The notes under the pieces were generated by a model. That model was not told the DNA's origin and made no database searches. It worked only from the letters and a program-made list of their open reading frames with translations. Positions 29,137-50,381 of a stretch of DNA of 64,000 nucleotides are shown piece after piece (positions within the stretch are counted from its first letter, which is position 1; every line of letters starts with the position of its first letter). Location of the stretch: assembly GCA_003164785.1 (NCBI GenBank), contig PLUE01000048.1:379-64378 (forward strand), written 5' to 3'. This DNA is from Gammaproteobacteria bacterium. Lineage in GTDB: Bacteria; Pseudomonadota; Gammaproteobacteria; Steroidobacterales; Steroidobacteraceae. Made by a program: the position numbers and the translations under genes.

Positions 29137-29194
29137 GCACGCGTCGGTCCGCACCGTAGGGCTGAGCGCGCGCGCACCGGCGGTCGAATGCCCT

Positions 29195-30562: not shown

Positions 30563-31339
30563 TTAAGCCGCGACCGCCGCGGCGAGCCGCGGCCGCGAAC
30601 TCGGCGACACCGCCCGCGGCCGCGCCAGTTGCTGCTCCAGCCAATCCAACCAGGGGCGGATCTGCTCGGTCCGCCGTGCGGCGGTGCGAATCATCGGTGT
30701 CTCTCCACCGAGCGAACGCAGCGCGGCGGCCGCGCGCGACGGGTCGAAATCCTCCAGTACCTCGAGCAGATCCACCTTGCTCAAGACCACCAGGTCGCTG
30801 GCACGGAAAATCACCGGGTATTTCGCCGGCTTGTCGTCCCCCTCGGTGACACTCAGCAAGGTGACGTTCAAGTGCTGCCCGAGATCGAAGCTGGCCGGGC
30901 AAACGAGGTTGCCGACGTTTTCAATGAACAGCAAATCAAGGCCCGCCAGCGGCAATTCGTGCAGCGCCCCATGCACGAGGGACGCATCGAGGTGACAGGC
31001 CGTTCCCGTCGTGATCTGCACCGCCGGCACACCCTGTGCGCGGATGCGCACGGCATCGTTGTCGGTTTCCAGATCACCTTCGATGACCGCGATACGGTAT
31101 CGGTCGCGTAGCGCCACGATCGTCGCTTCCAACAAGGCGGTCTTGCCGGCGCCGGGCGAGGACATGAGGTTGATGGCGAGGACACCGTGCGCGTCGAAGT
31201 GTTCGCGGTTATGCCTCGCGACCTGGTCATTGGCGGCAAGCAGATCTTGCACCACGTCGACCACCGTTGCGGGACCGTTGCGATCCAGCTTCAGATGAGC
31301 GGTACCGGGGGTCATACTGCAGCCGCAGGTAGTGCACAT
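30563..31339 (-). CDS. hypB: Hydrogenase nickel incorporation GTPase HypB
   Basis: GTPase that hands nickel to the large subunit with HypA. It is 258 residues. The N-terminal MCTTCGC is the high-affinity Ni motif. The His-rich stretch found in some HypB proteins is missing, so nickel storage is unlikely. The P-loop is SSPGAGKTALLE, the switch region is GDLETDNDAVRI, and the metal-site CxH is TTGTACHLDASL. A Pro/Arg/Ala-rich C-terminal tail of about 20 residues is not family-typical. Confidence 0.96.
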   Translation of the reverse strand: MCTTCGCSMTPGTAHLKLDRNGPATVVDVVQDLLAANDQVARHNREHFDAHGVLAINLMSSPGAGKTALLEATIVALRDRYRIAVIEGDLETDNDAVRIRAQGVPAVQITTGTACHLDASLVHGALHELPLAGLDLLFIENVGNLVCPASFDLGQHLNVTLLSVTEGDDKPAKYPVIFRASDLVVLSKVDLLEVLEDFDPSRAAAALRSLGGETPMIRTAARRTEQIRPWLDWLEQQLARPRAVSPSSRPRLAAAVAA

Positions 31340-31366: not shown

Positions 31367-31732
31367 TTAGTCCACGGATGCCGGCTGCGGCACTCGCAAT
31401 TCGACGCGCCGTAACCGCAGCTCATCTCCCGCCACGATTCGGGTGCGATATCCCCCGCATGCGGTGCACACCAATCGATTCGGCGCAGTTTGCGATTGCG
31501 CACCGCACGTCACACAGCAGATGGTGACCCCCGGCGATTCGATCGACAGCACGGCCTGCGCCGCGCAACTGCCGGTGCGAACCACGTCAAATGCGCGCGC
31601 AAGCAGCGCCGGCTCGACGCCCGACAGCGGACCCACTTCGATGACGATGCGCTCGACGGCATCCGCACCTCGTTCGGCTGCGATTTCAATGACCTGCGTC
31701 AGCAGGGCTTGGCAAACGGACAGCTCGTGCAA
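31367..31732 (-). CDS. hypA: Hydrogenase nickel chaperone HypA (TTG start)
   Basis: A 121-residue Ni/Zn chaperone. The family always begins MHELS, where the His2 binds Ni. Here HELSVCQALL is preceded by a TTG codon at 31732 and not ATG, so TTG is taken as the initiator; GGGA lies about 6 bases upstream. The Zn site is CVTCGAQ and CTACGG. The frame stays open to an ATG at 31825 but that would bury the essential N-terminal His. First gene of the hyp operon, 48 bp from a strong operator-like palindrome. Confidence 0.92.
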   Translation of the reverse strand: MHELSVCQALLTQVIEIAAERGADAVERIVIEVGPLSGVEPALLARAFDVVRTGSCAAQAVLSIESPGVTICCVTCGAQSQTAPNRLVCTACGGYRTRIVAGDELRLRRVELRVPQPASVD

Positions 31733-31780
31733 AGCGATTCCCAATGATCTACGCAAGGATAGCGCCGTTACGTGACCGGG

Positions 31781-31800
31781 TCTGTACGAAAACGCACAGA
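31781..31800. promoter_or_regulatory. CRP/FNR-geometry operator between hypA and the hydrogenase operon
   Basis: Half-sites TCTGTACG and CGCACAGA flank AAAA; the core TGTAC-GAAAAC-GCACA is at 31783-31798. It differs from the perfect site at 38529 at one half-site position apart from the spacer. It lies 48 bp from the hypA start and 47 bp from the protease start, so one site could control both directions. Confidence 0.6.
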
Positions 31801-31847
31801 TAGACCAACGGAAACGTGCTTTCATCTACAAAACGCAATGAGGGTGG

Positions 31848-32417
31848 ATGGTGACGTCATGGCTTGCACAAGACCCTCGGAGTACATCCAAAGCGGACGC
31901 CGTTCCAGCTGACGGCACACATCCGTGCGTGCGGATTCCTCCCGGGCCGCCGCTTTCCTTGGTTCTCGGTTTCGGCAACATACTGTTGAGTGACGACGGC
32001 GCCGGCGTCAAGCTGGTGGAGCGGCTGCGCGCGGAGATTGGCGACCATGCCGCGGTCTTTATAGACGGCGGCACCTTGAGCTTCAGCTTGCTGTCGTATA
32101 TCGAGGCGACAAATTCGATGCTGGTGGTCGATGCCGCCGATGTCAACGGCGCGCCGGGAACCGTCAGACTGTTCGAAGACGCGGCAATGGATGAGTTTCT
32201 GACGAGCAACCGCCGCCGAACCGTGCATGAGGTGGGTCTGATTGATCTGTTGGATATGGCGCGACTCCAGGACTGCCTGCCCCCCCGCCGCGCGCTGCTG
32301 TGCATTCAACCGCAGCGCATCGACTGGAGCGAGGAACTCTCGGCAACGGTCGCCGAGGCCCTGCCCGCGGCCGCCCATCGGGCCATCGCGTTGCTGAAAC
32401 GGTGGCAGCCCATTTGA
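31848..32417 (+). CDS. Hydrogenase maturation protease (HyaD/HupD family)
   Basis: Endopeptidase that removes the C-terminal peptide of the large subunit after nickel insertion. It is 189 residues from ATG 31848, which has GAGG just upstream. Motifs are LVLGFGNILLSDDGAGVKL (Ni-probing Glu/Asp region), FIDGGTLSFSLLSYIE and VVDAADVNGAPGT. Family members are about 160 residues and begin right at the LVLGxGN segment, so the first 34 residues here are either an extension or a sign of a later start (a GTG before RIPPGPPLS is available). The expected substrate, HynL, is encoded 3.5 kb downstream. Confidence 0.88.
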   Translation: MVTSWLAQDPRSTSKADAVPADGTHPCVRIPPGPPLSLVLGFGNILLSDDGAGVKLVERLRAEIGDHAAVFIDGGTLSFSLLSYIEATNSMLVVDAADVNGAPGTVRLFEDAAMDEFLTSNRRRTVHEVGLIDLLDMARLQDCLPPRRALLCIQPQRIDWSEELSATVAEALPAAAHRAIALLKRWQPI

Positions 32418-32863
32418 GCCGCCTCACGGACATCTCGATCCGGGTCGAACCTCTGGTCTCGGACGGCCTGTCAGTCAATAGCGGCGGGTTGGGCGGCGGC
32501 GTCGCCGCCATTCTCATGGAATTGAGTACGCTGCTCGGACGGCTCGTGGACAGCCAAACGCCCGCGGCCATCGATTTGCGCAGCCTGCCAATGAGCCCAA
32601 ACGACCGGGTGGCCCTCGAGCGCGCGCTCGGCGAAGGCGAAGTGCGGGCAACGGTCGATGCGCAAGGTCTGTCGACGATCGTCGAGACGCGCATCGCCGG
32701 AATCTGGTGGGTGAAGCATTGCAACGCCCAAGGGGATCTGGTCGCCGAGTTGCTCGAAGTGACGCGGGTGCCGGATATCCTCGCGTGCGCGCCCGATGAC
32801 ATCGCCGCAGGGGTACAAACGCTGCGCGCGCAAATCGCCACGATCACCGCGCGACCGAGCTAG
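32402..32863 (+). CDS. HupH/HyaF C-terminal-domain hydrogenase assembly protein
   Basis: A 153-residue protein resembling only the C-terminal half of HupH/HyaF: SGGLGGGVAAILMELSTLLG, LGEGEVRATVDAQG, ETRIAGIWWVKHCN and LLEVTRVPDILACAPDD. The N-terminal half of full-length HyaF is absent. This family helps mature the small subunit or its FeS clusters. The start is a GTG at 32402 (overlapping the protease gene by 16 bp) or TTG at 32414; no ATG fits. It is immediately followed by the small-subunit gene. Confidence 0.82.
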   Translation: MAAHLSRLTDISIRVEPLVSDGLSVNSGGLGGGVAAILMELSTLLGRLVDSQTPAAIDLRSLPMSPNDRVALERALGEGEVRATVDAQGLSTIVETRIAGIWWVKHCNAQGDLVAELLEVTRVPDILACAPDDIAAGVQTLRAQIATITARPS

Positions 32864-32872
32864 GAGCAACGA

Positions 32873-33988
32873 ATGACTCAGGATAACGACGCGTTGACGG
32901 TGGGACAGATGCTGCTGAAGCACGGCATCAGCCGGCGCGGTTTCATCCAGTACTGTACCGCCGTGGCCTCGAGCCTCGCCCTGCCGCCCTGGATGGGGCC
33001 GGCGATGGCCGAGCAGTTGCGCAGCGGCCCCAGACCGTCCGTGGTGTACCTCTCGTTCCAGGAGTGCACCGGCTGTCTGGAGTCGCTGACCCGATCCTTC
33101 AGCCCCACCATCGAAAACCTGATCTTCAACACGATTTCGCTGGATTATAACGACACGCTGATGGCCGCGTCCGGCGAGGCTGCGGAAGCGGCGCGCAACA
33201 AGGCCATGCAGGATAACTTCGGCAAATATGTGCTGGTGGTGGACGGGTCCGTGCCCACCGATGCGGGCGGCGGCTATTGCATGGCGGGTGGTCGCAGCGC
33301 CGTCGATATCCTGCGCGAGGCGGCCAAGGGCGCGGCGGCCATCGTCTGCGTCGGGACCTGCTCGGCATTTGGCGGCATCCCATTTGCCGATCCGAACCCG
33401 ACCGGTGCGTGGCCGGTCAGCGCCATCGTCGGGGATAAGCCCATCATCAACGTCTCCGGCTGCCCGCCCATTCCCGAGGTGATCACCGGAACGCTGCTGC
33501 AATTCGTCAGCACCGGACGAGTTCCGGACTTGGACGAGCACCGGCGCCCCAAGGTTTTCTTCGGCAACAGCATCCATGATCGCTGCTACCGGCGGCCGTT
33601 TTATGACCAGGGCAAATTCGCCAAGTCCTTCGACGACGAAGGGGCTCGCAATGGCTGGTGCCTATATGAGCTCGGCTGCAAGGGACCGACGACCTACAAT
33701 GCCTGCGCGACGCTCAAGTGGAACGGCGGCACCAGTTTCCCCATCGAGTCGGGACACGGCTGTCTCGGCTGCTCCGAGCCCGGATTCTGGGACAAGGGCA
33801 GCTTCTATTCCGCGCTGTCCAGCGCCGCGTGGGGCAAGGCGGGCGAGTCGACGCCACTGCGGGTGCTGGAAGTCGGTGCCGGCGCGGCGGCCGTGGGCGC
33901 CGCACTGGGGCTGGCGGCGGCTGGGTCGGCCCGGCTGCGTCAGCACCGCAGCGAGCAGCAAACCGACGATGAAACGACAGGAGGCTGA
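32873..33988 (+). CDS. hynS: [NiFe]-hydrogenase small subunit, Isp-type (group 1)
   Basis: Carries three FeS clusters moving electrons from the NiFe site. It is 371 residues with a Tat signal SRRGFIQYCTAVASSLALPP. Cluster ligands are visible: ECTGCLES, CVGTCSAFGG and SGCPPIPE (proximal), HDRCYRR with CLYELGCKGP (distal) and CATLKWNGG to GHGCLGC (medial). The two extra proximal cysteines of O2-tolerant Hyd-1-type enzymes are Gly here (CTGC and AFGG). A weak hydrophobic C-terminal stretch follows near residue 335. Isp1 starts 4 bp after the stop. Confidence 0.95.
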   Translation: MTQDNDALTVGQMLLKHGISRRGFIQYCTAVASSLALPPWMGPAMAEQLRSGPRPSVVYLSFQECTGCLESLTRSFSPTIENLIFNTISLDYNDTLMAASGEAAEAARNKAMQDNFGKYVLVVDGSVPTDAGGGYCMAGGRSAVDILREAAKGAAAIVCVGTCSAFGGIPFADPNPTGAWPVSAIVGDKPIINVSGCPPIPEVITGTLLQFVSTGRVPDLDEHRRPKVFFGNSIHDRCYRRPFYDQGKFAKSFDDEGARNGWCLYELGCKGPTTYNACATLKWNGGTSFPIESGHGCLGCSEPGFWDKGSFYSALSSAAWGKAGESTPLRVLEVGAGAAAVGAALGLAAAGSARLRQHRSEQQTDDETTGG

Positions 33989-33991
33989 CCT

Positions 33992-34651
33992 ATGGATCTT
34001 TTAGGCTTCGCACGCGGGCCAGCACTCAAGGTGGCGCTGGTCGTGTTCTGTCTGGGCGTGGTGTGGCGCATCCTCGGCTTCGGGTTGCTGCGCATCCGGC
34101 GTGACTGGAACAGGCCGCGCGCCTCGATGCTCAAGTACTTGTTCGGCGGCGCGCTGACGGTGGCGACGCGCTCGATCCCGCACCCGGAATTCATCGCTCG
34201 CACCGGCCCGGGCGAGGCGCTCGGCTACAGCTATCATCTCGGCCTGTTTGCCGTCGTGCTGCTGTTCACTCCGCATATTCTCTTTCTCCGCAGCCTGTTC
34301 GGCCTCCGCTGGCCGGGGTTGCCGAGCGGCGTGATCACCGTGATTTCGGTGCTCACCCTGACCTTGTTTCTGGCGGTACTGTTTCGGCGGGTAACGAATC
34401 CCGTGATGCGGATGCTGTCGAATTTCGACGATTACTTCAGCTGGTTCATCACCATGGTGGTCCTGGTCACGGGTCTTGCCACCACCGCTCACGTCGGCGC
34501 TCGGTACGAGACGCTGCTGGCCTTGCACATCCTGAGTGTCGATGTGCTGCTCATCTGGTTCCCATTCGGCAAGCTCATGCACGCCTTTTACATCTTTCCC
34601 TCCCGGGCCATCAACGGTGCGCTACTCGCCCGCAAAGGAGCCGCCTCATGA
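33992..34651 (+). CDS. isp1: Isp1, NarI-like cytochrome b subunit of hydrogenase
   Basis: A 219-residue inner-membrane protein with about five hydrophobic helices (residues roughly 12-27, 85-100, 112-132, 150-168, 178-198). Histidines lie in or next to helices (YSYHLG, TPHILF, TTAHVGARY, LALHILS) as expected for two b hemes. The NarI/DsrM-like family member encoded between hydrogenase small and large subunits is called Isp1 in Thiocapsa and relatives. It is proposed to exchange electrons between the hydrogenase, Isp2 and quinone. It overlaps isp2 by ATGA. Confidence 0.88.
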   Translation: MDLLGFARGPALKVALVVFCLGVVWRILGFGLLRIRRDWNRPRASMLKYLFGGALTVATRSIPHPEFIARTGPGEALGYSYHLGLFAVVLLFTPHILFLRSLFGLRWPGLPSGVITVISVLTLTLFLAVLFRRVTNPVMRMLSNFDDYFSWFITMVVLVTGLATTAHVGARYETLLALHILSVDVLLIWFPFGKLMHAFYIFPSRAINGALLARKGAAS

Positions 34652-35976
34652 GCGATGCCATCGGTCTACTCGCCGCCAATCTTGCACCCGCGGAGGAGGC
34701 GCGCACGCCGCAGGCTCGCGTCGCAGGTGCCATGAAGGGCTTCGTGCAGGAGATCGGCGCGTTGAGCGCCTTCCGTCTCGAGTCCTGCATCCATTGCGGC
34801 ATCTGCTCGGACGCCTGTCATTTCTACATCGCCACCGAAGATCCGCAATACACGCCGATCTGGAAGGTGGAACCTTTCAAGCAGGCCTATAAACGCGAAG
34901 CCAGCCCGTTCGCCCCGCTGTTCAAATTATTGGGCTTGAAGCGTGAAGTGACCGCCGATCAGCTGGAGCATTGGCAGCATCTGCTGTTCGACAGCTGCAA
35001 CATGTGCGGCCGTTGCAGCTTGATCTGTCCCATGGGCATCGATGTGGCCGCGCTCATCGAGCAGGCGCGCCACGCCATGTTCGATGCTGGTCTGGCGCCG
35101 AAGGAACTCTACCAGAAGGCGGCGCACCAGCGCGAGACCGGCCAGCCGGAGGCGAGCGCCGAGCCCTATCGCGATCAATTGCTCGCCATCGGCGCACGGT
35201 TTGGCGTCGAGATTCCGCTCGATAAGCCCGAGGCGGAGATCATGTTGTGCGTACCCCGGACCGACATCGAGCATTACCCGAGTGCCGTCGCGGCGCTCGC
35301 GCGCGTGGTGCAACACCTCGGTGTGTCGTGCACCTTTCGCAGCGATGGCCTGGTGGCGGAGAACTACGGTTATTACGCGGGCGGCAAGGAGTGGCAGCGC
35401 GAGATCAGTCTGCGTTTGATCGAGCAGGCCATTGCCTGCAAAGCCAAGGTTCTGTTGGTGCCGGAATGCGGTCATGCCTATACCGCGCTGCGCTGGGAAG
35501 CGGCCGATCTGTACGGCAAGGCGCTGCCCTTCAAGGTACGCCACGTTACCGAATTTCTCGCCGACGAGTTGCAATCGGGGCACCTGAAGCTGACGCCTGC
35601 GGGCACCGGCAAAACCACCTTCCATGATCCCTGCCAGCTGGTGCGCAAGGGCGGCGTCAACGATGCACCGCGGGCGCTCATGAAAGCGATGGGCATCAAG
35701 CTCGACGAATTGAAGAATCACGGCGGTTTCAGTTACTGCTGTGGCGGCGGCGGTGGAGTGCTCGACATCGAGCGCGCGGCGCCCCTGCGCTACCGGACGA
35801 TGGAGAACAAATTGCGCGAGATCGACGATACCGGGGCCACGACGTTCGTGACGAGCTGCTCCGACTGCCGGCGCACCTTCGACGATGCGCAGGCTCACTT
35901 CAGCTGGGACAAGACCACCCACAGCCTGCTGGAACTCGTGGCCAATAATCTCCTGGCCGCGGCAGACCGTCCATGA
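34648..35976 (+). CDS. isp2: Isp2, HdrD-like FeS protein of hydrogenase
   Basis: A 442-residue cytoplasmic-side protein resembling heterodisulfide reductase subunit D. It has two [4Fe-4S] motifs, CIHCGICSDAC (from residue 47) and CNMCGRCSLICP (from residue 117). Two CCG-type domains follow: VPECGHAYTA, then HDPCQLVRKGG with SYCCGGGGGVLD and TSCSDCRRTF. HdrD proteins hold a special cubane at the CCG cysteines and reduce disulfides, so Isp2 has been proposed to give this hydrogenase a second partner besides quinone. It overlaps isp1 and the large-subunit gene by four bases each. Confidence 0.88.
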   Translation: MSDAIGLLAANLAPAEEARTPQARVAGAMKGFVQEIGALSAFRLESCIHCGICSDACHFYIATEDPQYTPIWKVEPFKQAYKREASPFAPLFKLLGLKREVTADQLEHWQHLLFDSCNMCGRCSLICPMGIDVAALIEQARHAMFDAGLAPKELYQKAAHQRETGQPEASAEPYRDQLLAIGARFGVEIPLDKPEAEIMLCVPRTDIEHYPSAVAALARVVQHLGVSCTFRSDGLVAENYGYYAGGKEWQREISLRLIEQAIACKAKVLLVPECGHAYTALRWEAADLYGKALPFKVRHVTEFLADELQSGHLKLTPAGTGKTTFHDPCQLVRKGGVNDAPRALMKAMGIKLDELKNHGGFSYCCGGGGGVLDIERAAPLRYRTMENKLREIDDTGATTFVTSCSDCRRTFDDAQAHFSWDKTTHSLLELVANNLLAAADRP

Positions 35977-37715
35977 CCGCACAGACCATCGTCGTCGATC
36001 CCGTCACGCGCATCGAAGGGCATCTGCGGATCGAGGCGCAGTTCGACGGCTCGACCATCACCCAGGCGTCGAGCTCCGGCACCATGGTGCGCGGCATCGA
36101 AATCATTCTGCAGGGCCGCGATCCACGCGATGCCTGGGCCTTTGCGCAGCGTATCTGCGGGGTGTGTACGCTGGTCCACGGGCTCGCCTCGGTGCGCGCC
36201 GTCGAAGATGCCTTGAAATATACCATCCCCGCCAACGCGCAGCTCATCCGCAATCTCATGATCGCCGCGCAGTTCGTGCACGATCATGTGATGCATTTTT
36301 ACCACTTACACGCCCTCGACTGGGTGGACGTCGTCTCGGCGCTCAAAGCCGATCCGAAGGCAACCTCGGCGCTCGCGCAATCGATCTCGACCTACGCACG
36401 CTCCTCGCCGGGCTATTTCACCGAGGTACAGAACCGGGTCAAGAAGCTGGTGGAATCGGGCCAGCTCGGCATTTTCGCCAATGCCTACTGGGGCCATCCG
36501 GGATACAAGTTGCCGCCGGAGGCGAACCTCATGGCCGTGGCGCATTATCTCGATGCGCTCGCCTGGCAGCGCGAGGTCGTGCAGCTACAAACCATCTTCG
36601 GCGGCAAGAACCCGCACCCCAATGTGCTGGTGGGCGGCGCGCCTTCCGCCATCAGCGTCCACACTGGCGCCGGCACCGGCACCACCGCCGTCAACGAAGT
36701 CGGCCTGCAGCGCGTGGCCGCGGTCATCGAACAGATGCGCAATTTCGTCGACCAGGTCTATTTGCCGGATATCCTGGCGATCGGTTCGTTTTACAAGGAT
36801 TGGTTCAAGACCGGCTACGGGGAAGGCACAGGAAATTTTCTGACCTACGGGGATTTCCCGGCCCTGGGCAGTCAGGACCCGAAAACCTTCCTGATACCGC
36901 GCGGCGCGATTCTGGGTCGCGACCTTTCCCATATCCATGAGGTCGACCTCAACGCGGAAGAGGACATCCAGGAATTCGTGTCACATTCGTGGTACGACTA
37001 CCAGGGCGGCAAGGACGTCGGGTTGCATCCGTACCGCGGAGAAACCAAGCTGAATTACTCCGGGCCACCCTCGCCATACAAGAACCTCGACACCTCGGCT
37101 AGTTATTCCTGGCTGAAGTCGCCGCGCTGGAAGGGGCACGCGATGGAAACGGGGCCGCTGGCGCGCGTGCTCATGCTGTACGCCAACGGCCACGAACCGA
37201 CCAAGGAACTCGCCGACAAGTCGCTGGCCCAGCTCGGCCTGCCGCTCGATGCCTTGTTCTCGACCATGGGTCGCACCGCCGCCCGTGCCCTCGAATGCAA
37301 AATACTGGCCGACGCCATGCCGCAGTGGTACGACGCTCTCATCGCGAACATCAAGGCCGGCGATGTGCGCACCTTCAATGATGCGCTGTGGGAGCCGTCG
37401 AGTTGGCCGCGACACGCGCAAGGCGTGGGATTCGTGGAGGCTCCCCGGGGCGCCTTGGCGCATTGGATCATCATCGACGACGGTAAGATCTCGAACTATC
37501 AGGCCGTGGTACCGACCACGTGGAATGCCGGCCCGCGCGATGTGAACGGTACCGAGGGCCCCTACGAAGCGGCACTCAAGGGTCACACCCTGCAAGACCC
37601 GAAGCAGCCGCTCGAAATCCTGCGTACCATTCACAGCTTCGATCCCTGCCTTGCCTGCGCCGTGCATGTCGTCGATCCGGACGGCGAGGAGTTGATTCGG
37701 GTGCGCGTGCAGTGA
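35973..37715 (+). CDS. hynL: [NiFe]-hydrogenase large subunit, Isp-type (group 1)
   Basis: Holds the NiFe(CN)2CO site that oxidises H2 or makes it. It is 580 residues. The L1 motif RICGVCTLVHG begins at residue 60; the L2 motif DPCLACAVH ends at His565, followed by a 15-residue tail starting VVDPDG that the maturation protease at 31848 should remove. The gene order small-isp1-isp2-large is the reason for calling it Isp-type (group 1e in current [NiFe] schemes). It ends 102 bp before the convergent tetraheme cytochrome gene. Confidence 0.96.
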   Translation: MTAQTIVVDPVTRIEGHLRIEAQFDGSTITQASSSGTMVRGIEIILQGRDPRDAWAFAQRICGVCTLVHGLASVRAVEDALKYTIPANAQLIRNLMIAAQFVHDHVMHFYHLHALDWVDVVSALKADPKATSALAQSISTYARSSPGYFTEVQNRVKKLVESGQLGIFANAYWGHPGYKLPPEANLMAVAHYLDALAWQREVVQLQTIFGGKNPHPNVLVGGAPSAISVHTGAGTGTTAVNEVGLQRVAAVIEQMRNFVDQVYLPDILAIGSFYKDWFKTGYGEGTGNFLTYGDFPALGSQDPKTFLIPRGAILGRDLSHIHEVDLNAEEDIQEFVSHSWYDYQGGKDVGLHPYRGETKLNYSGPPSPYKNLDTSASYSWLKSPRWKGHAMETGPLARVLMLYANGHEPTKELADKSLAQLGLPLDALFSTMGRTAARALECKILADAMPQWYDALIANIKAGDVRTFNDALWEPSSWPRHAQGVGFVEAPRGALAHWIIIDDGKISNYQAVVPTTWNAGPRDVNGTEGPYEAALKGHTLQDPKQPLEILRTIHSFDPCLACAVHVVDPDGEELIRVRVQ

Positions 37716-37728
37716 GTGGGGCCGCTCG

Positions 37729-37769
37729 GGTCTCGTGCGCACGGGTGCTGTGCGCTCGTGTTCGAGACC
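37729..37769. terminator. Possible bidirectional hairpin between hynL and the tetraheme gene
   Basis: A 7-bp stem GGTCTCG/CGAGACC (37729-37735 with 37763-37769) has an inner partly paired GC-rich loop between convergent stops at 37715 and 37818. No T tract is present, so intrinsic termination is uncertain. Confidence 0.3.
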
Positions 37770-37817
37770 GTTCTGCGGCGGCGGGTGCCTCGGCCGCTTG
37801 AGGTACTCGTCGGCGCT

Positions 37818-38396
37818 TCAGCCACCCGGCAGCGTGTGCGCGACGCCCTGGTGGCAATCGATGCAGGTCATGCCGCTCTTTGCCAACGATTGATGCGCCT
37901 CGGCGGCGGCCGGGGGCTGCTTCGCGAATGCCATGGCGGCCGGCGTATGACAGCTGCGGCACTCCGCGGAATCGTTCGCCTTGAGCTCGTCCCAGATCTT
38001 CTGTGCCAGCGCCATCCGCATCGCTTCGTATTTTGCGGGCGTATCGAGTTCCCCGCGCAGGTGGCCCCACAACTCTTTATATGCCTGAATGTGCCGCCAC
38101 AGGCCCGGCAGAAAGGCCGGCGGTACATGGCAATTACCGCAGCCCGCCTGAATGCCGAATTCGTTGGAGGAATGCACGCTCTGCTTCAACTCCTGGGCAG
38201 CGGTATTCATCTCGTGGCAGGAGGTGCAGAACGCATTGGTCTCTGCAAATTTGAGGCCGCCCACGAAGCCGCCCGTCACGACGACGCCGATGATGAAGGC
38301 GATCAGTCCCCCGGCCGGAATACCGAGCAAAAACCAACGCTGCGGGCGCCGCCAAAGCCATGCGGCAATGCCGCCGACGGGTTGCGGGGAATTCAC
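37818..38396 (-). CDS. NapC/NirT/CymA-like tetraheme c-type cytochrome
   Basis: A 192-residue protein with an N-terminal membrane anchor (residues about 22-45, LGIPAGGLIAFIIGVVVTGG) and a periplasmic domain with four CxxCH sites: CTSCH, CGNCH, CRSCH and CIDCH. NapC/CymA proteins oxidise menaquinol and pass electrons to periplasmic partners; in Shewanella CymA feeds MtrCAB. The start is GTG at 38396. It is divergent from the MtrC-like gene and shares a perfect operator palindrome with it, supporting a common role. Confidence 0.9.
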   Translation of the reverse strand: MNSPQPVGGIAAWLWRRPQRWFLLGIPAGGLIAFIIGVVVTGGFVGGLKFAETNAFCTSCHEMNTAAQELKQSVHSSNEFGIQAGCGNCHVPPAFLPGLWRHIQAYKELWGHLRGELDTPAKYEAMRMALAQKIWDELKANDSAECRSCHTPAAMAFAKQPPAAAEAHQSLAKSGMTCIDCHQGVAHTLPGG

Positions 38397-38528
38397 GGCG
38401 AAGTTCTCGAGGCAGTCATGAGCGATCCTTCATCCCAATCCGAATCTGTCGGCTGATCTGAATGATCAGCGTTGGCACGCATCGCCGTCAACCGAAAGGA
38501 ACAGGCTACTCCCGCCGCGGGTCCGAGA

Positions 38529-38548
38529 TCTGTACGTTTTCGTACAGA
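38529..38548. promoter_or_regulatory. Perfect CRP/FNR-geometry operator upstream of the tetraheme and mtr genes
   Basis: TCTGTACG and CGTACAGA flank TTTT; with the outer A/T the palindrome is 22 bp (38528-38549). The core TGTAC-N6-GTACA at 38531-38546 has the 5+6+5 spacing of CRP/FNR-family sites. It lies about 100 bp before the MtrC-like ATG and 132 bp before the tetraheme GTG. The other sites in this window are read as variants of this one. Confidence 0.65.
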
Positions 38549-38648
38549 TGCTTCCCCGGTTGTGGCGTAAGGTGTGAGTGAGTGCTTCGGGGTGTCTGCG
38601 TGGGTGTTGCGCAGCCGCGGATTGTCGGGATCGATCGGGGAGAGTTAC

Positions 38649-41300
38649 ATGTCGCGTGGGAACGGGATTGACGGGTTACGCCGCGGCGCCACTTGGGGCG
38701 CGGCCGCAATGGTCACCGCGATGCTTTATGCGCTGCTGGGAGCTTGTAGTGGCAGTACCGGCCCCGCCGGGGCCACGGGGGCGACCGGCGCCACGGGCGC
38801 GACCGGATCGACCGGCGCCACCGGCTCGGTGAGCGCGCTCAGCCTGACGACGGCCGCGACGATTACCGCGACCATCACCGGTGTCACCATTTCCACCACC
38901 TCGCCCGCACAGCCCGTGGTGAAATTCCAGCTGGTCAATGAAAGCGGCCAGCCGCTGTCGGGCTTGACGGCGGGCGAGATCGATTTCGCGGTCGCCAAGC
39001 TCGTCCCCGCGGGTACGCAGCTCGCCGCGGTCCCGCCGCAGACGGTGGCACCCGCGCCGCTGATGTCGAGCCAATGGCAATCATACATCTATACGACGGC
39101 GACTCCCGCGAGCGCGGGCACCACCGCGGACCCCGTGGTCGGCACCACGCCGCAGCCGCAGGCAACCGTCGAGGCCGGCACGGCGGGGACTCTGGTCGAT
39201 AACGGCGATGGCACATATCAGTACACCTTCGCAAAAGACATCTCCGCGGACAAGGCCGTCCCTTATGTGCCGACGCTCACCCACCGGGTGGGTTTCGAGA
39301 TCCGCGGCGTCACCAATTCCGCGGGCACCACCATCGTGGCGAACAGCCCGGTCTATACCTTCCAGCCCTCGACCGGCGCCACCACCGGTATCACCCAGTT
39401 CGACATCGTCGATGACACCAGCTGCAATGGCTGCCACCAGAGCCTCGCCGTGCACGGGGGTGCGCGCGAGGGCGTGAAGTACTGCGTGGTGTGCCACAAC
39501 CCCAGCACTATCGATCCGTCCAGCGGCAACACCCTGGACTTCAAGGCGATGGTCCACGCCATTCATACCGGCGCAGGCCTGCCCAACGTGGCGGGCAAGT
39601 CCTTCACGGGAGTCACGGTTTCCCCCACCTCCAATTACTACATCTACGGTTATGGCGGGGCCGTCAGCGATTTCTCGACAGTGGTGTTCCCGCAGGACGA
39701 TGCCAGCGGCAACAACAGCGCGGTGTCCGGGCCGGGCACGCGCTTCTGCACCGTGTGCCATGTCACCAGCGACACCAGCACGCCGCAGGCGGGGAACTTC
39801 AGTTCGGCGCCTTCGGCAGTCGCCTGCGGTTCCTGCCACGACAACGTCAATTTCGCGACCGGGGCGGGCCATAGCGCCGCGAACATTGTCGCCAACGACA
39901 GCCAGTGCTCGATCTGCCACGGTCCGACCAGCACCATCGACAATGGTTCGCTGTCGGTGGTGGCCGCGCACACGACGGGCGTGGATACGGCCATCAAGCA
40001 CTTCCTGTTCAACATCGTCAGCGTCTCCAACACGGCGCCGGGCCAGATGCCGGTCGCCACCATCAGCGTGACGGATCCGACCAACAACAATGCTCCGTAC
40101 CCCATTGGCGCCGCCGGTGGTCCGTTCCAGCAAAGTTCTTCCGCCCTGAACCTGGACCTTGCCTGGAGCACCAACAGCCTGGGCGCCAACGGCGTCAACA
40201 ACGTGGGTTCGGGCAGCAATCCTGCCCAGCCGCTGACCATCAATCTTGCGGCCGCCGCCAAGGCCGGCACGGCGATCCAGAACGGCGACGGTTCATTCAC
40301 CGTGACCGCTGCCACGGCCCTTCCAGCCAATGCCACGGGTTCGCTGATCGCCTCGTTGGAGGGCCGGGCGGTGGAGTCGCTGAACAACCTCTCCGGCAGC
40401 GGCACCACGGCGGTCTCGCTGGGTGTGAAGACCGCGAGTCAGACAGTCACCATCACGGGCACGACGCCCGCGAGCCGCACGGCGGTCGTCGATTTTGCGA
40501 CCAAGTGCGCCACCTGCCATGGCACGTTGACCGTGCACGGGGAGAACCGCACCCTGGCAACGGTGGACGCAAAGGGTAATGCGGCGCCGCAGACCGACAT
40601 CAACCTGTGCGCCTCCTGCCACAACCCGAACGCCACGGACATCCTGGATATCACCAAGTCGACGCAAACCAAGGGCGCCTGTGCCCTGAGCAGCTCGCCG
40701 GTCGGGGCCGCGGATCACGCGATTGACCTCAAGACCATAATCCACGCCATCCATGCCTCGGGAGACCCGTACGCCTACAACACCACCAGCCCGATCTACG
40801 GCACCTACGGCAATGGCGCCAGCGGGGCCGCTTCCAGCACGGGTGGGTTGACGATCTGCTCCACCCACGCCCCGGGCGGGGGTGAGACGCTCCAGGTGCT
40901 GTATCCGCCCAGCAGCGACGAAAATGGCGTCCCCAGCCTGGCCAACTGCGAGGCCTGCCACCTTTCCGGTACCGAGTACCCGGTGGATCCCACGACCGCG
41001 GAAGGCACCACCATCCACGCCAACAGCGTCACCTCGGATCTGACCCTGGCCACGGTGGCGACGCCGAATTCCGCGGCGTGCTCCGCCTGCCACACCGATA
41101 GTTCGGCCATCAACCACATGCTGCAGAACGGAGGCAGTTTCAGTGCCAAGAAGAACGCGGACGGCACCCTTAATGCCGCCTCCGTCTCGTCCCTCGAGAC
41201 CTGTACCGTGTGCCATGCTTCGGGCGGTGTCGCGGACGTGAAGGTCGTGCACCATGTCTTGAGCTTCCCGGCCAACCAGACGACGGCCGCCACGCCGTGA
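38649..41300 (+). CDS. Decaheme outer-surface c-type cytochrome, MtrC/OmcA family
   Basis: An 883-residue lipoprotein: signal ending ALLGAC with the lipid Cys at residue 33. It has ten CxxCH sites in two groups of five, at about residues 259, 279, 367, 393, 420 and 620, 654, 767, 811, 852. Two pentaheme domains separated by about 195 residues of beta-rich sequence is the MtrC/OmcA plan. A collagen-like Gly-X-Thr repeat follows the lipid Cys. Such proteins sit on the cell surface and reduce metal oxides, humics or electrodes. ATG 38649 is chosen over 38574 because of the signal peptide. First gene of a three-gene conduit operon. Confidence 0.93.
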   Translation: MSRGNGIDGLRRGATWGAAAMVTAMLYALLGACSGSTGPAGATGATGATGATGSTGATGSVSALSLTTAATITATITGVTISTTSPAQPVVKFQLVNESGQPLSGLTAGEIDFAVAKLVPAGTQLAAVPPQTVAPAPLMSSQWQSYIYTTATPASAGTTADPVVGTTPQPQATVEAGTAGTLVDNGDGTYQYTFAKDISADKAVPYVPTLTHRVGFEIRGVTNSAGTTIVANSPVYTFQPSTGATTGITQFDIVDDTSCNGCHQSLAVHGGAREGVKYCVVCHNPSTIDPSSGNTLDFKAMVHAIHTGAGLPNVAGKSFTGVTVSPTSNYYIYGYGGAVSDFSTVVFPQDDASGNNSAVSGPGTRFCTVCHVTSDTSTPQAGNFSSAPSAVACGSCHDNVNFATGAGHSAANIVANDSQCSICHGPTSTIDNGSLSVVAAHTTGVDTAIKHFLFNIVSVSNTAPGQMPVATISVTDPTNNNAPYPIGAAGGPFQQSSSALNLDLAWSTNSLGANGVNNVGSGSNPAQPLTINLAAAAKAGTAIQNGDGSFTVTAATALPANATGSLIASLEGRAVESLNNLSGSGTTAVSLGVKTASQTVTITGTTPASRTAVVDFATKCATCHGTLTVHGENRTLATVDAKGNAAPQTDINLCASCHNPNATDILDITKSTQTKGACALSSSPVGAADHAIDLKTIIHAIHASGDPYAYNTTSPIYGTYGNGASGAASSTGGLTICSTHAPGGGETLQVLYPPSSDENGVPSLANCEACHLSGTEYPVDPTTAEGTTIHANSVTSDLTLATVATPNSAACSACHTDSSAINHMLQNGGSFSAKKNADGTLNAASVSSLETCTVCHASGGVADVKVVHHVLSFPANQTTAATP
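38751..38822 (+). repeat. Collagen-like Gly-X-Y coding repeat
   Basis: Eight consecutive codon triplets encode GST GPA GAT GAT GAT GAT GST GAT, starting two residues after the lipidated Cys of the MtrC-like protein. It probably forms a tether between the outer membrane anchor and the heme domains. Confidence 0.75.
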
Positions 41301-41344
41301 GGGGGCAATCACGGTCGCTGGACAGGCGTTCGGTGGGCACCTGA

Positions 41345-42307
41345 ATGCAGTGGTTGCGACGGGGAACAGCCGTGGTGGTGCTGCTGGCGTGCGGCTTGGG
41401 GCCGGCACGGGCCGCGGATGCGCCGCAGTCGGGCGCAGCAGCCGCATCATCGACGCCGGCGCCTGCCGCCTACAGTGCGCAGGGAGCCGACACCTGCCTG
41501 GCTTGTCACGGCGGTGACACCACGGTCACGGGCATTTTCCGCACCAAGCATGCGCGCCCGAACGATCCCAATGGCCCCTTCGGTCACGGCGGTCTGCAGT
41601 GCGAGGCCTGTCACGGTCCGGGCGGCGCGCACGCGGCGGCCGGCGGCGGCCCGCTCGCGGGCATGCGCGACTTCGGCCCCAAGGCGCTCACCCCGGCATC
41701 ACAGCAGAATGCCGTGTGTCTCGGCTGCCATCAATCGAACGCCGCGCACGATTGGGCGTCGAGCGCGCATGCCGCGAGCAACGTGGCCTGCGCGAGTTGC
41801 CATGATCTGCACAAGCCGAAGGATCCGGTGCTGACCGCGGCCACGCAGATCGAGGTCTGCACCAGCTGTCACCAGGCACAACACACCGACCTGCTCAAAC
41901 CGTCGCATCATCCGATGAGCGAGGGGAAAATGGCCTGTACCGCCTGCCATTCGCCGCACGGTTCGACGGCGCCGGCGCAATTGGTGAGGAACACCGTCAA
42001 CGAAACCTGCACCAGCTGCCATGCCGAATACCGCGGGCCGTTTCTCTGGGAACACCAGCCAGTGACCGAGGACTGCACCAGCTGTCACCAGCCGCATGGC
42101 TCGGTGCAACCGGCGCTGCTCAAGCTCCGCCCGCCGTTTCTGTGTCAGACCTGTCATGAGGGCGCGGGCCATCCATCCATCGCGAACACGCCACAGGGTT
42201 TGGCCGGCGGAACGTCGAGCGCCTATTTGCTCGCCGGCGGCTGTATCAACTGTCATTCCCAGGTTCACGGCTCGAATAACCCGTCCGGCCGCGCCTTGAT
42301 GCGATAG
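41345..42307 (+). CDS. Periplasmic decaheme cytochrome, MtrA/DmsE family
   Basis: A 320-residue exported cytochrome with signal MQWLRRGTAVVVLLACGLGP and ARA before the mature protein. It has ten CxxCH sites: CLACH, CEACH, CLGCH, CASCH, CTSCH, CTACH, CTSCH, CTSCH, CQTCH and CINCH. The length and heme count match MtrA, PioA and DmsE, which thread through an MtrB barrel to carry electrons across the outer membrane. The repeated 'CxxCHxPHG' blocks are characteristic. It begins 44 bp after the MtrC-like stop and ends 5 bp before mtrB. Confidence 0.93.
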   Translation: MQWLRRGTAVVVLLACGLGPARAADAPQSGAAAASSTPAPAAYSAQGADTCLACHGGDTTVTGIFRTKHARPNDPNGPFGHGGLQCEACHGPGGAHAAAGGGPLAGMRDFGPKALTPASQQNAVCLGCHQSNAAHDWASSAHAASNVACASCHDLHKPKDPVLTAATQIEVCTSCHQAQHTDLLKPSHHPMSEGKMACTACHSPHGSTAPAQLVRNTVNETCTSCHAEYRGPFLWEHQPVTEDCTSCHQPHGSVQPALLKLRPPFLCQTCHEGAGHPSIANTPQGLAGGTSSAYLLAGGCINCHSQVHGSNNPSGRALMR

Positions 42308-42312
42308 ACCTC

Positions 42313-44469
42313 ATGAACGCAAACTCTCGCCATCGTACATCCCAGCAGCATCCGGACATTCCGTTCGCGCCGCGGCTGGCCGCCATGGTCGCGATGGCGG
42401 CATTGAGCATCCCGGCGCCGGCATCGGCCGACACGCCGGCGGACACCAGCGATTGGAAATGCACGCAATGTCCCTTCCTGCAAGGCTACGAGTCCAATGT
42501 GGAAGTGGGCGCGCTGTCCGCCAGCGGCGCGAACGCCTATTTCGGCCGTTACACCGGCATCGATCACCCCGGCACCTATGCTGACGTGGGCGCGTCCGGA
42601 CAACTTCGCAGCGACGACGGGTCGTATGCGAACTACGACCTCGAGCAGCTCGGACTCGCCTCTCGGGAGGGGTACGTCGAAGGCGGCCGCGAAGGCAAGT
42701 ACGATCTGCGCGTGAGCTACGACGGCCAGCCGGCGCGGCTCTACGACACCGCCGTCACACCGTACCAGGCCAGCGGCACGAATCTCGGTCTGCCCGCGGG
42801 CTGGATCGCGGCCGGCGGCACCGCCGGCATGAGTGCGCTGGGATCGAGCTTGGCGTCCGCACCGATCGAGACGGACCGGCGCACGGTGGCATTGCTGGGC
42901 CGCTTCTTTGCAAGTCCCGGCTGGACCCTGTTCGGCGAGTTTCGGCGCCAGGAAAAAGTGGGCACCGAGCTCACGAGCGCCAGCTTCTTGACCGAAGCGG
43001 TGCAATTATCCCAGCCCGTCGACTATGTCACCGATTCCTTCGAAGGCGGCGTCGCGTGGTCCGGCCGAATCGCGAGTCTGCGCGTGAGCTACCTCGGTTC
43101 CTGGTTCGAGGATGACAACGATGCGCTGACCTTCGCGAATCCCTATCTGCCGATCGTGCCGGGCGCCACGGAGGGACGACTCAGCGTTCCGCCCAGCAAC
43201 AACCTGCAGCAGGTCGCTGCATCCGGCAATCTGCAGCTGCCCTGGTACGCGACCACGTTGACTTTCGCGGCCTCGCTCGGCTGGCTTCGGCAGGACGATG
43301 GCTTTCTGCCCGTCAGCACCTTGGCCGGTGCCGGCGTGCCGGCCCCGGGATCGCTCGATGGCGATGTGCATCTGTCGCACTACGCACTGCAACTGGCGTC
43401 GCGGCCGCTGCCGAAGCTCAGCATCCGGGGCAATGCGGCCTATGACGGCCGCGACGACAAAACGACGCCGATCGCCGTCGACTACGTCGTGACGGACACC
43501 TTTCCGGGCGGTACGGCGCTCACGCCCCGTTACAGCGAGGACCGGGTACGACTCGATGGCGGCGCGGATTACGCCTTGACGCACTGGCTGCGCATCGGCG
43601 TCGGCGGCAAGTTCAACGATGATCACTACGGGCCCGGGCAGGTGATCACCAACACCCAGGAAACCCAGAGCTGGGGCCGCGCCACGGTCACGCCCCTCTC
43701 GTCCCTGACCTTCACGGTGAAATACGGCGATGCCCTGCGCAAGGCCTCGTCGTTCAACACCGCCGCCCTGCCGGCGGATGAGAATCCCTTGGTGCGGGAC
43801 TACATCTATGCGCCGCGCGATCGGGTGTTCGGCTCCCTCACGGGTTCCTGGGCCGCCACCGCGACGATCAGCTGGACGGTCGAGGGCTTCCTCGCCAAGG
43901 ATGACTATCGATCCTCACCGCTGGGATTGCTGGCCGCACACCAGCAGCGCGCATCGACGACGCTCACCTGGACACCGCGCGAGACGTTGAGCCTCTATAT
44001 CGATGCGGGTTACGAGCGTATGGCCATGCTGCAGAACGGCTACACGGGGGCGCTCACGGCGCCGTGGCTCAGCGCGGACACCGAGCGATTCTGGAACTTG
44101 GACGTGGGTGGACGCTGGGTCCCGCAAGCACGCTGGACGCTCACATTGGACTACCTGCTCGCGCCTTCGTATGACAACACCGACACCGCAGTGGGCGCCG
44201 CGCCACAGGCCTTTCCACAGAATTGGACGAAGCTCGATTCCGCGCGTCTCGGCGTCGCCTATCAATGGACGCCCGCTTTGCAGGTCCATTTCAAGTACAC
44301 CCGCGAACAATACAATTCCAACGACTGGGCGCTCAACGCGGTGGGACCGTCCACCGTGCCGAACCTGCTGGCGTTGGGGATCCAGCCGTACCGCGACTCC
44401 GTGAACATGTTTGGCCTCACGGTGCGCTATCAGTTCGGCCACGACAGCACGCCGCGCGCGGCGCAATGA
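42313..44469 (+). CDS. MtrB/PioB-family outer-membrane barrel
   Basis: A 718-residue porin that sheathes the MtrA-type cytochrome. After a signal (ending PAPASA) the mature N-terminus has WKCTQCPFLQGYES, the CxxC motif found near the start of MtrB. The rest alternates polar/hydrophobic beta strands with aromatic belts (for example GKYDLRVSYDG, WTLTLDYLLAPSYD) and ends YQFGHDS followed by a short tail. It completes a porin-cytochrome conduit with the two preceding decaheme proteins. Its stop is 10 bp from the convergent nuoN stop. Confidence 0.9.
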   Translation: MNANSRHRTSQQHPDIPFAPRLAAMVAMAALSIPAPASADTPADTSDWKCTQCPFLQGYESNVEVGALSASGANAYFGRYTGIDHPGTYADVGASGQLRSDDGSYANYDLEQLGLASREGYVEGGREGKYDLRVSYDGQPARLYDTAVTPYQASGTNLGLPAGWIAAGGTAGMSALGSSLASAPIETDRRTVALLGRFFASPGWTLFGEFRRQEKVGTELTSASFLTEAVQLSQPVDYVTDSFEGGVAWSGRIASLRVSYLGSWFEDDNDALTFANPYLPIVPGATEGRLSVPPSNNLQQVAASGNLQLPWYATTLTFAASLGWLRQDDGFLPVSTLAGAGVPAPGSLDGDVHLSHYALQLASRPLPKLSIRGNAAYDGRDDKTTPIAVDYVVTDTFPGGTALTPRYSEDRVRLDGGADYALTHWLRIGVGGKFNDDHYGPGQVITNTQETQSWGRATVTPLSSLTFTVKYGDALRKASSFNTAALPADENPLVRDYIYAPRDRVFGSLTGSWAATATISWTVEGFLAKDDYRSSPLGLLAAHQQRASTTLTWTPRETLSLYIDAGYERMAMLQNGYTGALTAPWLSADTERFWNLDVGGRWVPQARWTLTLDYLLAPSYDNTDTAVGAAPQAFPQNWTKLDSARLGVAYQWTPALQVHFKYTREQYNSNDWALNAVGPSTVPNLLALGIQPYRDSVNMFGLTVRYQFGHDSTPRAAQ

Positions 44470-44479: not shown

Positions 44480-45946
44480 TTACTTCGCGCTCAGACCCGC
44501 CGCCTGCACCCATGCGATGAACGGTCCGGGATAGACGCCGAGCAACAGAATCGCCAACGTCAGCAACATCAATATGCCGCCGCCCGCGCCTCGAGCCCAG
44601 TTGCGCGGGGCCGCAAACGGCACCACCCAGCGCGGGCGCAGGTAGAGCTGCACCATTGCACGCAAGTAGTAGTAGAGGCCGAGGGCGCTGCCGAGTACGA
44701 CGGCGGCAAGCAGCACCCACAAGCGTTTGTCGACGCCGGCGCCGAGCACATAGAACTTGCCGATGAAACCGGCGGTGAGCGGAATACCGGCGAGCGAGAG
44801 CAGCGCCACGGTCAGGATCAGGGCGAGGGACGGACGCTTCCAGAACAGGCCGCGGTAATCGAACAGTGTTTCTGCATCTTGCTCCTTGTAGGGGCTCGAC
44901 ATCAGCGTGATGACGCCGAACGCCGCCAGCGTGGTCACCAGGTAGGTCAGCAGGTAGACGCCGACCGCCTCGATCGCCAAGGGGCCGGAGGCAACCAGCG
45001 CCACCAGCAGATAGCCGAAGTGGGCAATCGATGAATAGGCCAGAAGGCGCTTGAGATTCTCCTGCCGCAGCGCCAGGACATTGCCAATGGCGATGGACAG
45101 GATCGCCAGCACCGACAACACATCGACCAAGGTATCGTACTGATAGGCACGCGCCTCGACGAAGTAGCGCAGCAGCAGCGCGAACACGGCGATTTTGGAC
45201 GCGGTCGCCAGGTACGATGTGACGGGAGCCGGAGCACCTTCGTAGACGTCCGGAGTCCATAGATGGAACGGCGCGAGCGACAGCTTGAAGCCGACGCCGA
45301 TCAGGAGCATGGCGCCGCCGAGAATCATCACGCTGCGTGCGCCATCGGCCACGTTCGCGGCGCTCGCGCCGATGTCGCCGAACACCAGCGTGCCGGTCTG
45401 TGAATACACCAGCGCCATGCCGAAGACGATGAAGGCTGAAGCGACGGCCGACAGCACCAGGTACTTCATGCCCGCTTCCAGCGAGCGGCGCGCTTTCACG
45501 AGATAGGCTGCCATGCCGTACATCGGCACGGACAAAAGCTCAAGACCCAGGAAAAAGGAGGCAAAATGACGGCTGGCGACCATCGTCAATCCGCCGAGCG
45601 TGGACAGCAGCAGCAGCAGATAAATCTCTTCGCGATTGCCCTGGTAACCCTCCATATACGCGGGCAGAAGCGTCGCGGTGGCCAGCGCGGCGATGAGGAT
45701 CAGCGCCATGTAAAGCCAAGCGTAGTTATCGATGCCCAGCAGCGGCGTCACGGTTTGCGGCAGCGTGCTGATGCCGGGCAGCCAGAAGTGCACGATGAGT
45801 GGCAGCAGCGCGAGACTCAATCCCGCCACCGCGATCGTTGCGGTCCACCCGTGGTGGCGCTTGAGGGCAATGGCGAGCATCACCACGACGATGGAGACGC
45901 TGGTGATGAGGATCGGCGAGAGCGCCAACAGTTGTTGCACGGTCAT
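44480..45946 (-). CDS. nuoN: NADH-quinone oxidoreductase subunit N
   Basis: Antiporter-like membrane subunit of complex I. It is 488 residues with about 14 helices. Conserved stretches are LELLSVPMYGMAAY (with the key Glu), FKLSLAPFHLWTPDVYEGAP (with the key Lys and HxWxPD) and RLLAYSSIAHFGYLL. The start MTVQQLL at 45946 overlaps the nuoM stop by ATGA; an upstream ATG at 46012 is inside nuoM. Last gene of the nuo operon. Confidence 0.95.
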   Translation of the reverse strand: MTVQQLLALSPILITSVSIVVVMLAIALKRHHGWTATIAVAGLSLALLPLIVHFWLPGISTLPQTVTPLLGIDNYAWLYMALILIAALATATLLPAYMEGYQGNREEIYLLLLLSTLGGLTMVASRHFASFFLGLELLSVPMYGMAAYLVKARRSLEAGMKYLVLSAVASAFIVFGMALVYSQTGTLVFGDIGASAANVADGARSVMILGGAMLLIGVGFKLSLAPFHLWTPDVYEGAPAPVTSYLATASKIAVFALLLRYFVEARAYQYDTLVDVLSVLAILSIAIGNVLALRQENLKRLLAYSSIAHFGYLLVALVASGPLAIEAVGVYLLTYLVTTLAAFGVITLMSSPYKEQDAETLFDYRGLFWKRPSLALILTVALLSLAGIPLTAGFIGKFYVLGAGVDKRLWVLLAAVVLGSALGLYYYLRAMVQLYLRPRWVVPFAAPRNWARGAGGGILMLLTLAILLLGVYPGPFIAWVQAAGLSAK

Positions 45947-47508: not shown

Positions 47509-47540
47509 GGATGCGGCCTCATGGTTGGATGCGGCTTCAT
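47509..47540 (-). repeat. 14-bp direct repeat forming a mini-frame before nuoM
   Basis: GGATGCGGC(C/T)TCAT occurs at 47509-47522 and 47527-47540 on the plus strand, with a third, degenerate copy near 47544. On the coding strand it reads MKPHPTMRPHP and stops at a TGA inside the ATGA of nuoM. GAGG within it precedes the nuoM ATG by 8 bases. Confidence 0.5.
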
Positions 47541-47554
47541 CGTCGAACGCAGCC

Positions 47555-50359: not shown

Positions 50360-50381
50360 GCCATATCCTCGTTCGTTTCGG

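Follow-up and report, generated by a model that had tools for sequence, protein, structure and literature searches.

The window, a stretch of 64,000 nucleotides on contig C51 of a gammaproteobacterial genome (G000; 5.85 Mb in 75 contigs with an estimated contamination of 6.45%), contains the genes of an Isp-type [NiFe]-hydrogenase next to genes encoding a NapC-family tetraheme cytochrome and the MtrC, MtrA and MtrB components of an outer-membrane electron conduit. The hydrogenase genes are arranged on the forward strand in the order hynS (32873..33988), isp1 (33992..34651), isp2 (34648..35976) and hynL (35973..37715), with a gap of 3 bp followed by two 4-bp overlaps. The location of isp1 and isp2 between the small and large subunit genes (32873-37715) is the gene order of the Isp-type (group 1e) enzymes. 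The deduced small subunit, HynS, matched TIGR00391 with 426.5 bits, and a motif scan revealed a twin-arginine motif and a C-terminal hydrophobic helix. The large subunit, HynL, matched PF00374 with 773.9 bits and carries an HxHxxHxxHxH motif besides the nickel-ligand motifs; 3myr was the top solved match for both subunits. Every family score for Isp1 was under the curated cut-off, and its putative assignment as a DsrM/TmcC-like membrane cytochrome b is supported by five predicted helices. The DsrK-like Isp2 contains two 4Fe4S motifs and one CCG-type cluster motif, which are also present in all 89 other Isp2 rows compared.

The napC gene (37818..38396) is located 102 bp past hynL on the reverse strand, convergent with hynL and divergent from mtrC, an orientation that the original prediction did not mention. 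The deduced protein, a NapC/CymA-like candidate quinol dehydrogenase, matched the NapC/NirT domain PF03264 with 201 bits (cut-off 24.1) and has four CXXCH heme motifs and one N-terminal helix. The protein did not reach the cut-off of NCBIfam napC_nirT TIGR02161 (191.4 versus 310.6 bits) and is therefore named NapC-family only, not CymA. Following on the forward strand are mtrC (38574..41300, with the start perhaps at ~38649), encoding an MtrC/OmcA-type decaheme lipoprotein (TIGR03507, 442.6 bits, cut-off 209.3; 10 CXXCH; lipobox LGAC), mtrA (41345..42307), encoding a decaheme periplasmic cytochrome (TIGR03508, 297.3 bits, cut-off 192.2; 10 CXXCH), and mtrB (42313..44469), encoding an outer-membrane barrel with a CxxC motif (PF11854, 364 bits; TIGR03509, 330.9 bits, cut-off 240.05). 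The gaps are 44 bp between mtrC and mtrA and 5 bp between mtrA and mtrB, and the three adjacent genes constitute an MtrCAB-type set. Solved relatives of the conduit proteins are chains A and C of 6r2q, the MtrCAB complex, with chain A the relative of MtrA. Just after the lipobox, the translation of mtrC shows a run of GAT-type repeats (window 38730-38840) that is perhaps a linker.

The distribution of the hydrogenase and conduit genes was investigated in relatives. A contig scan with HynL, in which the best 80 of 561 loci were kept and 10-kb flanks viewed, revealed that the closest named relatives are Gammaproteobacteria from bog and palsa samples (isolates bog_1204, bog_1200 and palsa_1193), the samples presumably being from Stordalen Mire. 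Within these flanks mtrC-mtrA-mtrB adjoin the hydrogenase genes in bog_1200 (L055), L059 and Wenzhouxiangella limi (L118), and mtrC adjoins them in bog_1204 (L054). An 89-row Isp2 tree placed the window in a 10-row clade with support of 100. The MtrB search covered the genomes of 71 of the 77 loci that are not from the window genus, with L133, L083 and L108 prioritised for nearby multiheme genes, and MtrB was scored present when a partial match was over the cut-off (L084, L092) and absent in three cases below it. It was found in nine of the 10 clade rows versus 18 of 73 tested rows outside the clade (Fisher p 0.0001, kinship not corrected for), with six outside rows left out; the tenth clade row, L056 from genome G015, is MtrB-negative and was entered in the tree as untested. 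For L133, with an Isp2 outside the clade, mtrA and mtrB are located ~3.5 kb from a protease gene. The suggestion that the Isp2 cluster motif is peculiar to the Mtr-linked clade was rejected, the motifs being present in all five groups of the rows (10, 11, 7, 10 and 51 rows). An oxygen-tolerant small subunit was likewise rejected: HynS Cys136 (window 33278-33280) aligns with a cysteine of the oxygen-tolerant type, and the second extra cysteine is replaced by glycine. Cys136 occurs in four of the eight clade rows with hynS (window, L054, L055 and L057) and outside the clade in L088 and L090.

Addition of seven Wenzhouxiangellaceae gave an Isp2 tree of 34 rows in which the clade comprised 17 rows with a value of 100 in the Shimodaira-Hasegawa-like approximate likelihood ratio test (SH-aLRT). 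These 17 are referred to below as the module genomes; 15 contain MtrB, the exceptions being G015 and G512. The original prediction had named relatives that keep the two blocks apart as the finding that would speak for chance proximity. The hydrogenase and mtr genes are on the same contig within 20 kb in 10 of the 17 (G000, G011, G001, G426, G438, G509, G510, G511, G521 and G522) and apart in four, of which G424, G425 and G427 were scored on only 2 to 3.5 kb past hynL and G440 has the blocks on separate contigs; G015, G496 and G512 were not judged. This outcome favors linkage. An even draw of 369 genomes of the class supplied a base rate: 70 contain a HynL-like protein at E ≤1e-100 (not all of Isp type), 27 contain MtrB and 14 contain both, the two genes being close only in the window host. 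The remaining pairs are 580 kb apart on one contig in one genome and on different contigs in 12, contig ends having been checked for G042 only. In G042 (L233), a genome of the same taxonomic order, mtrCAB is ~3.5 kb from hypA, hypE and hypF, and the hydrogenase is on another contig that ends 0.6 kb past hynL. Overall, the results indicate that the linkage of the hydrogenase and mtr genes is not chance.

HynL relatives with at least 73% identity are present in 11 of 23 genomes of the window genus, the host included. The window-type hydrogenase was found in four of them (G000, G011, G001 and G015), and the other seven contain a different Isp hydrogenase with the order isp1-hynL-isp2, preceded by hynS in view in six. 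MtrB occurs in three of the 23 genomes (G000, G011 and G001), all with the window-type hydrogenase, or three of four versus none of the 19 others (Fisher p 0.002, kinship not corrected for). The order hynL, reversed napC, mtrC is common to the window, G011 and G001. The G011 contig ends inside mtrC with mtrA-mtrB on another contig, and in G015, a genome 71% complete, the contig ends in hynL. The mtrB of G001 (L035 15079-16900) is split in two pieces in different frames, either a pseudogene or an assembly error. In an MtrB tree of 38 rows, the window, G011, G001, G424, G425 and G426 formed one clade with support of 100, branching as (G425,G426) beside (G424,(G001,(window,G011))). The 89-row Isp2 tree matches this branching for the six genomes where resolved, whereas the 34-row tree conflicts with it in pairing G001 with G424 (support 86). 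A second MtrB clade, some distance away, consists of W. limi and G440, and the G427 MtrB fragment stands alone; these separate groups indicate that the Isp2 clade is associated with two or more mtr lineages.

Among 43 Wenzhouxiangellaceae genomes, the clade Isp2 was found in nine and MtrB in 31, one of them a weak fragment. In W. limi the genes hynS-isp1-isp2-hynL-mtrC-mtrA-mtrB-UbiA, the last encoding a UbiA-family prenyltransferase, run head to tail on one strand with gaps of 193, 129, 9 and 31 bp; beyond UbiA are ArsA-type ATPase genes and napC on the other strand and, farther on, another UbiA-family gene as well as a small four-heme gene. The same arrangement is present in G522 as far as its contig reaches, starting within isp2. 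In G521 and G511, hynS-isp1-isp2-hynL-UbiA precede a set of genes on the opposite strand, made up of ArsA, napC and two small four-heme genes, and mtrC-mtrA-mtrB come after that set. In G509 a UbiA-like gene, napC, mtrC, mtrA and mtrB are on one strand, with the UbiA-like gene ~0.5 kb from napC-mtrCAB and the mtr genes 11 to 17 kb from hynL. The contig of G510 shows hynL-mtrC-mtrA up to its end, and a second mtrC-mtrA-mtrB-UbiA with ArsA and napC is on another contig; the two mtrC genes of this genome (L244, L254), one after hynL and one before mtrA-mtrB-UbiA, are different. The contigs of G496 and G512 end just past or within hynL. ArsA-type ATPase genes beside UbiA-napC-mtr were seen in five genomes of the family (L118/L229, L245, L246, L249 and L254).

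It had been predicted that electrons pass from the hydrogenase to the tetraheme cytochrome through menaquinone. The window contains menA (14968..15840, reverse strand; TIGR00751, 146.6 bits, cut-off 102.15), not linked to the module in relatives, and a forward-strand menF-menD-menH-menB-menC-menE set (16853..24074), with menF, menD and menB over and menC and menE below the cut-off, that ends 1.7 kb ahead of hypE. As a general step, menaquinone was not borne out. A search covering the classical Men pathway, with MenD as the marker, found MenD over the cut-off in six of the 17 module genomes (G000, G001, G440, G496, G511 and G521) versus two of 39 others (G056 and G500) among the 56 searched (Fisher p 0.007), and menaquinone as part of every module was rejected on this basis. 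A UbiA-family gene adjoins hynL or the mtr genes in 11 of the 17: in G511 and G521, which have both markers, and in nine with the UbiA-family gene only, mostly MenA-like (G011, with two, G424, G425, G426, G427, G438, G509, G510 and G522). Four genomes have MenD only (G000, G001, G440 and G496), and neither was seen in G015 and G512, with contigs broken at hynL. In the window genus, G000 and G001 have a men cluster and no UbiA gene beside mtrB, and in G011 mtrB is accompanied by two UbiA genes and MenD is absent; these genomes indicate that the men cluster and the linked UbiA gene replace each other in the genus.

The linked UbiA genes of G011, G426, G427 and G438 were checked by Pfam and the others by tblastn (32% for G425 and 37% for G509). 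The G426 protein is over the NCBIfam menA cut-off and those of G427 and G438 are below. In a UbiA tree the linked genes are apart from MenA of the window, MenA of G001 and the second W. limi gene, and fall into two groups with G426 and G509 unplaced. Similar UbiA genes occur near the Isp hydrogenases of L093, L108 and L130, which are outside the clade and all in genomes with MtrB. From this pattern we infer that the quinone need would be met by menaquinone in some hosts and perhaps by a dedicated prenylquinone in others. A tentative extension, offered as a possibility with the odds against it, is that the module requires a supply of naphthoquinone and often brings one of its own, the linked enzyme making a prenylquinone dedicated to electron flow from H2 to the outside, perhaps from a scavenged head group. 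If true, the linked UbiA would parallel, in Gram-negative bacteria, the salvage of quinone for electron export in Gram-positive ones.

The gene content, the motifs, the conserved linkage and the matching tree branching are the basis for the proposal that the locus is probably a module of genes for H2 respiration with an extracellular electron acceptor. We infer every transfer of electrons, the way they flow and the identities of quinone and acceptor as follows. HynSL, exported by the twin-arginine route, would split H2 on the periplasmic side of the inner membrane, with electrons passing from the small-subunit clusters to the cytochrome b Isp1 and on to a membrane quinone; Isp2 on the cytoplasmic side may be a second electron exit. 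The NapC-family cytochrome would oxidize the quinol and donate to MtrA, in some relatives via small tetraheme cytochromes, and MtrA would pass electrons through the MtrB barrel to MtrC at the cell surface. Likely acceptors would be Fe(III), humic quinones or Mn(IV). The original prediction of one system from H2 to the outside of the cell is thus supported by the conserved linkage (within 20 kb in 10 of 17), and its menaquinone step is not supported as a general feature.

Several observations weigh against a single system. MenD is missing in 11 of the 17 module genomes. In the Wenzhouxiangellaceae MtrB is found in eight of nine genomes with the clade Isp2 versus 23 of 34 without it (p 0.40), and since MtrB is common in the family anyway, the presence of both in one genome carries little weight there and only their proximity is informative. 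The scan for FNR-like boxes revealed no promoter signal in common. The opposite strand of napC means that the hydrogenase-napC-mtr block is not one operon, and the strand arrangement alone implies at least three transcription blocks. A NorB-like gene is straight after hynL in G425 (L058 3451-5553), so the hydrogenase may also feed other acceptors, for example in nitric oxide (NO) reduction. The last two observations, with the separate blocks in four module genomes and the complex I genes beside mtrB in the window, would also suit two branches working side by side on a common quinone pool: the hydrogenase would feed any acceptor (oxygen, NO or nitrate), MtrCAB would drain quinol from any donor, and their proximity would be due to shared regulation rather than to a dedicated route from H2 to the outside. 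This arrangement is considered unlikely in view of the head-to-tail order in W. limi and G522, the napC and tetraheme genes inserted between the hydrogenase and mtrCAB in G521 and G511, and the match of Isp2 and MtrB branching.

Electrons might instead flow inward: taken from Fe(II), reduced humics or a cathode and passed through MtrCAB, they would serve to reduce quinone, to form NADH by complex I running in reverse, or to release H2. Relatives of MtrA and MtrB occur in genomes of iron oxidizers: outside the clade, six of the 18 rows with MtrB carry the label Gallionella, Sideroxydans, Gallionellaceae or Gallionellales. Fe(II) oxidation needs no hydrogenase, however, and the barrel is accompanied by an OmcA/MtrC-type surface decaheme and a NapC-type gene, the set-up of iron reducers. 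Inward flow is judged quite improbable on these grounds, even though group 1e enzymes are termed bidirectional in HydDB as cited in PMC7735108. Chance proximity or an assembly artefact could be invoked for a host genome of 75 contigs with 6.45% estimated contamination, and the men and nuo neighbors are on other contigs in G001 and G011, respectively. The order hynL, reversed napC, mtrC is kept in G011 and G001, however, and the linkage is seen again in G426 and in six members of the Wenzhouxiangellaceae, among them a named strain; chance is already contradicted by this conservation, and such an explanation is highly improbable. Conserved linkage in the relatives supports H2 respiration to an acceptor outside the cell as one system.

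The hydrogenase resembles the group 1e Isp enzymes of Allochromatium vinosum (3myr) and Acidithiobacillus ferrooxidans in gene order and subunits, the best solved relatives of HynL and HynS being 3myr chains. It differs in the linkage to mtrCAB and in its Isp2, which belongs to a clade separate from the 72 to 79 other rows in the comparison. With the CymA-MtrCAB system of Shewanella the window shares a NapC-family tetraheme, a decaheme MtrA, an MtrB barrel and an OmcA/MtrC-type decaheme, whereas its conduit genes are located with hydrogenase and maturation genes; we know of no hydrogenase-conduit neighborhood of this kind in Shewanella. The hynS-isp1-isp2-hynL of A. ferrooxidans is assigned to group 1e (PMC7735108), and models of archaeal relatives have Isp1 as the route to the membrane quinone and Isp2 as a cytoplasmic exit (PMC11018855). 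Hydrogenase genes also adjoin cytochrome genes in Deferribacter autotrophicus, where the neighboring hydrogenase and multiheme cytochrome clusters have been proposed to be linked to lithoautotrophic iron reduction (PMC6896113). This system differs from the window in a hydrogenase of HybABCO type (PMC13186404) and in that no MtrA, MtrB, MtrC or CymA homologues were found (PMC6896113).

A further comparison is quinone salvage for electron export in Lactiplantibacillus plantarum, which involves dmkA, a gene of the UbiA family. Unlike in the window module, neither a hydrogenase nor an outer membrane takes part, and the linked UbiA of the module may act on 1,4-dihydroxy-2-naphthoate (DHNA). Electron export in L. 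plantarum uses a quinone that the cell cannot itself make (PMC9888254, PMC10746273). Among the matches listed in the open-access literature, with most subscription journals not covered, none described an Isp hydrogenase linked to mtrCAB, and the linkage is not mentioned in the parts available of PMC4245776, PMC12285243, PMC12727194, PMC5566968 and PMC12810054. Each part of the locus is already known, and what is new is how they are combined. For this branch of the Isp hydrogenases, the conserved linkage points to a definite candidate partner. The neighborhood of hydrogenase and conduit genes in uncultured bog bacteria and a few relatives suggests that H2 is oxidized there by transfer of its electrons to extracellular minerals or humic matter. 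H2 is produced in peat bogs, where Fe(III) and humic acceptors are also present, and bacteria passing electrons from H2 to the outside would compete with methanogens for H2. The idea is directly testable in Wenzhouxiangella limi C33, a named cultured strain with hydrogenase, conduit and prenyltransferase genes head to tail.

The hydrogenase genes are preceded by a maturation protease gene (31848..32417; PF01750, TIGR00072 over the cut-off) and a hupH-like gene (32300..32863; PF04809 HupH_C), both on the forward strand, and by reverse-strand hyp genes: hypA (31367..31825; PF01155, 92.9 bits), hypB (30563..31339; PF02492), hypC (30303..30560; 85 amino acids), hypD (29195..30424; PF01924, 492 bits, the frame beginning upstream of the likely start), hypF (26836..29400; HypF domains) and hypE (25808..26839; AIRS domains PF00586 and PF02769). 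HypC was identified only by its N-terminal motif MCLAVP, and the longer frame (30271-30558) gave no Pfam match. The predicted gene list of hypABCDFE, protease, hupH, hynS-isp1-isp2-hynL, tetraheme NapC-family gene and mtrC-mtrA-mtrB is present in full, as confirmed by family searches except for hypC, and most of the hyp genes fall outside the interval 31367-44469 that had been assigned to the block, reaching down to 25808.

The scan for FNR-like boxes (TTGAT-N4-ATCAA, ≤2 mismatches) gave 22 matches versus 12.3 expected, a number reached in 2 of 100 shuffles, with none in the gaps before hynS, napC and mtrC, and a shared regulon is not claimed. The deduced product of a CRP-family gene (24964-25770) shows no cysteine cluster of the FNR type. 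A complex I set, nuoN to nuoA (44480..59548, reverse strand; nuoK not identified), starts 10 bp past mtrB. Two more NuoF-like matches occur elsewhere in G000, and the set of the window is therefore taken as additional; relatives of its NuoF are 88% identical in G011 and 56% in G013, and those in other genus members are ≤45% apart from one short piece of 53%. The 44-kb stretch between men and nuo inclusive is bounded by inverted YgaP-like copies (window 15949-16505 and 60011-60567) that share 81% protein identity and have 74-76% complementary arms. One transferred 44-kb island of men, hyp, hyn, mtr and nuo genes was considered and rejected because relatives do not retain the whole, men being on another contig in G001 and nuo in G011. 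A radical-SAM gene is located shortly past the hydrogenase genes in two clade members (L059 12124-13506 and L125 11898-13334).

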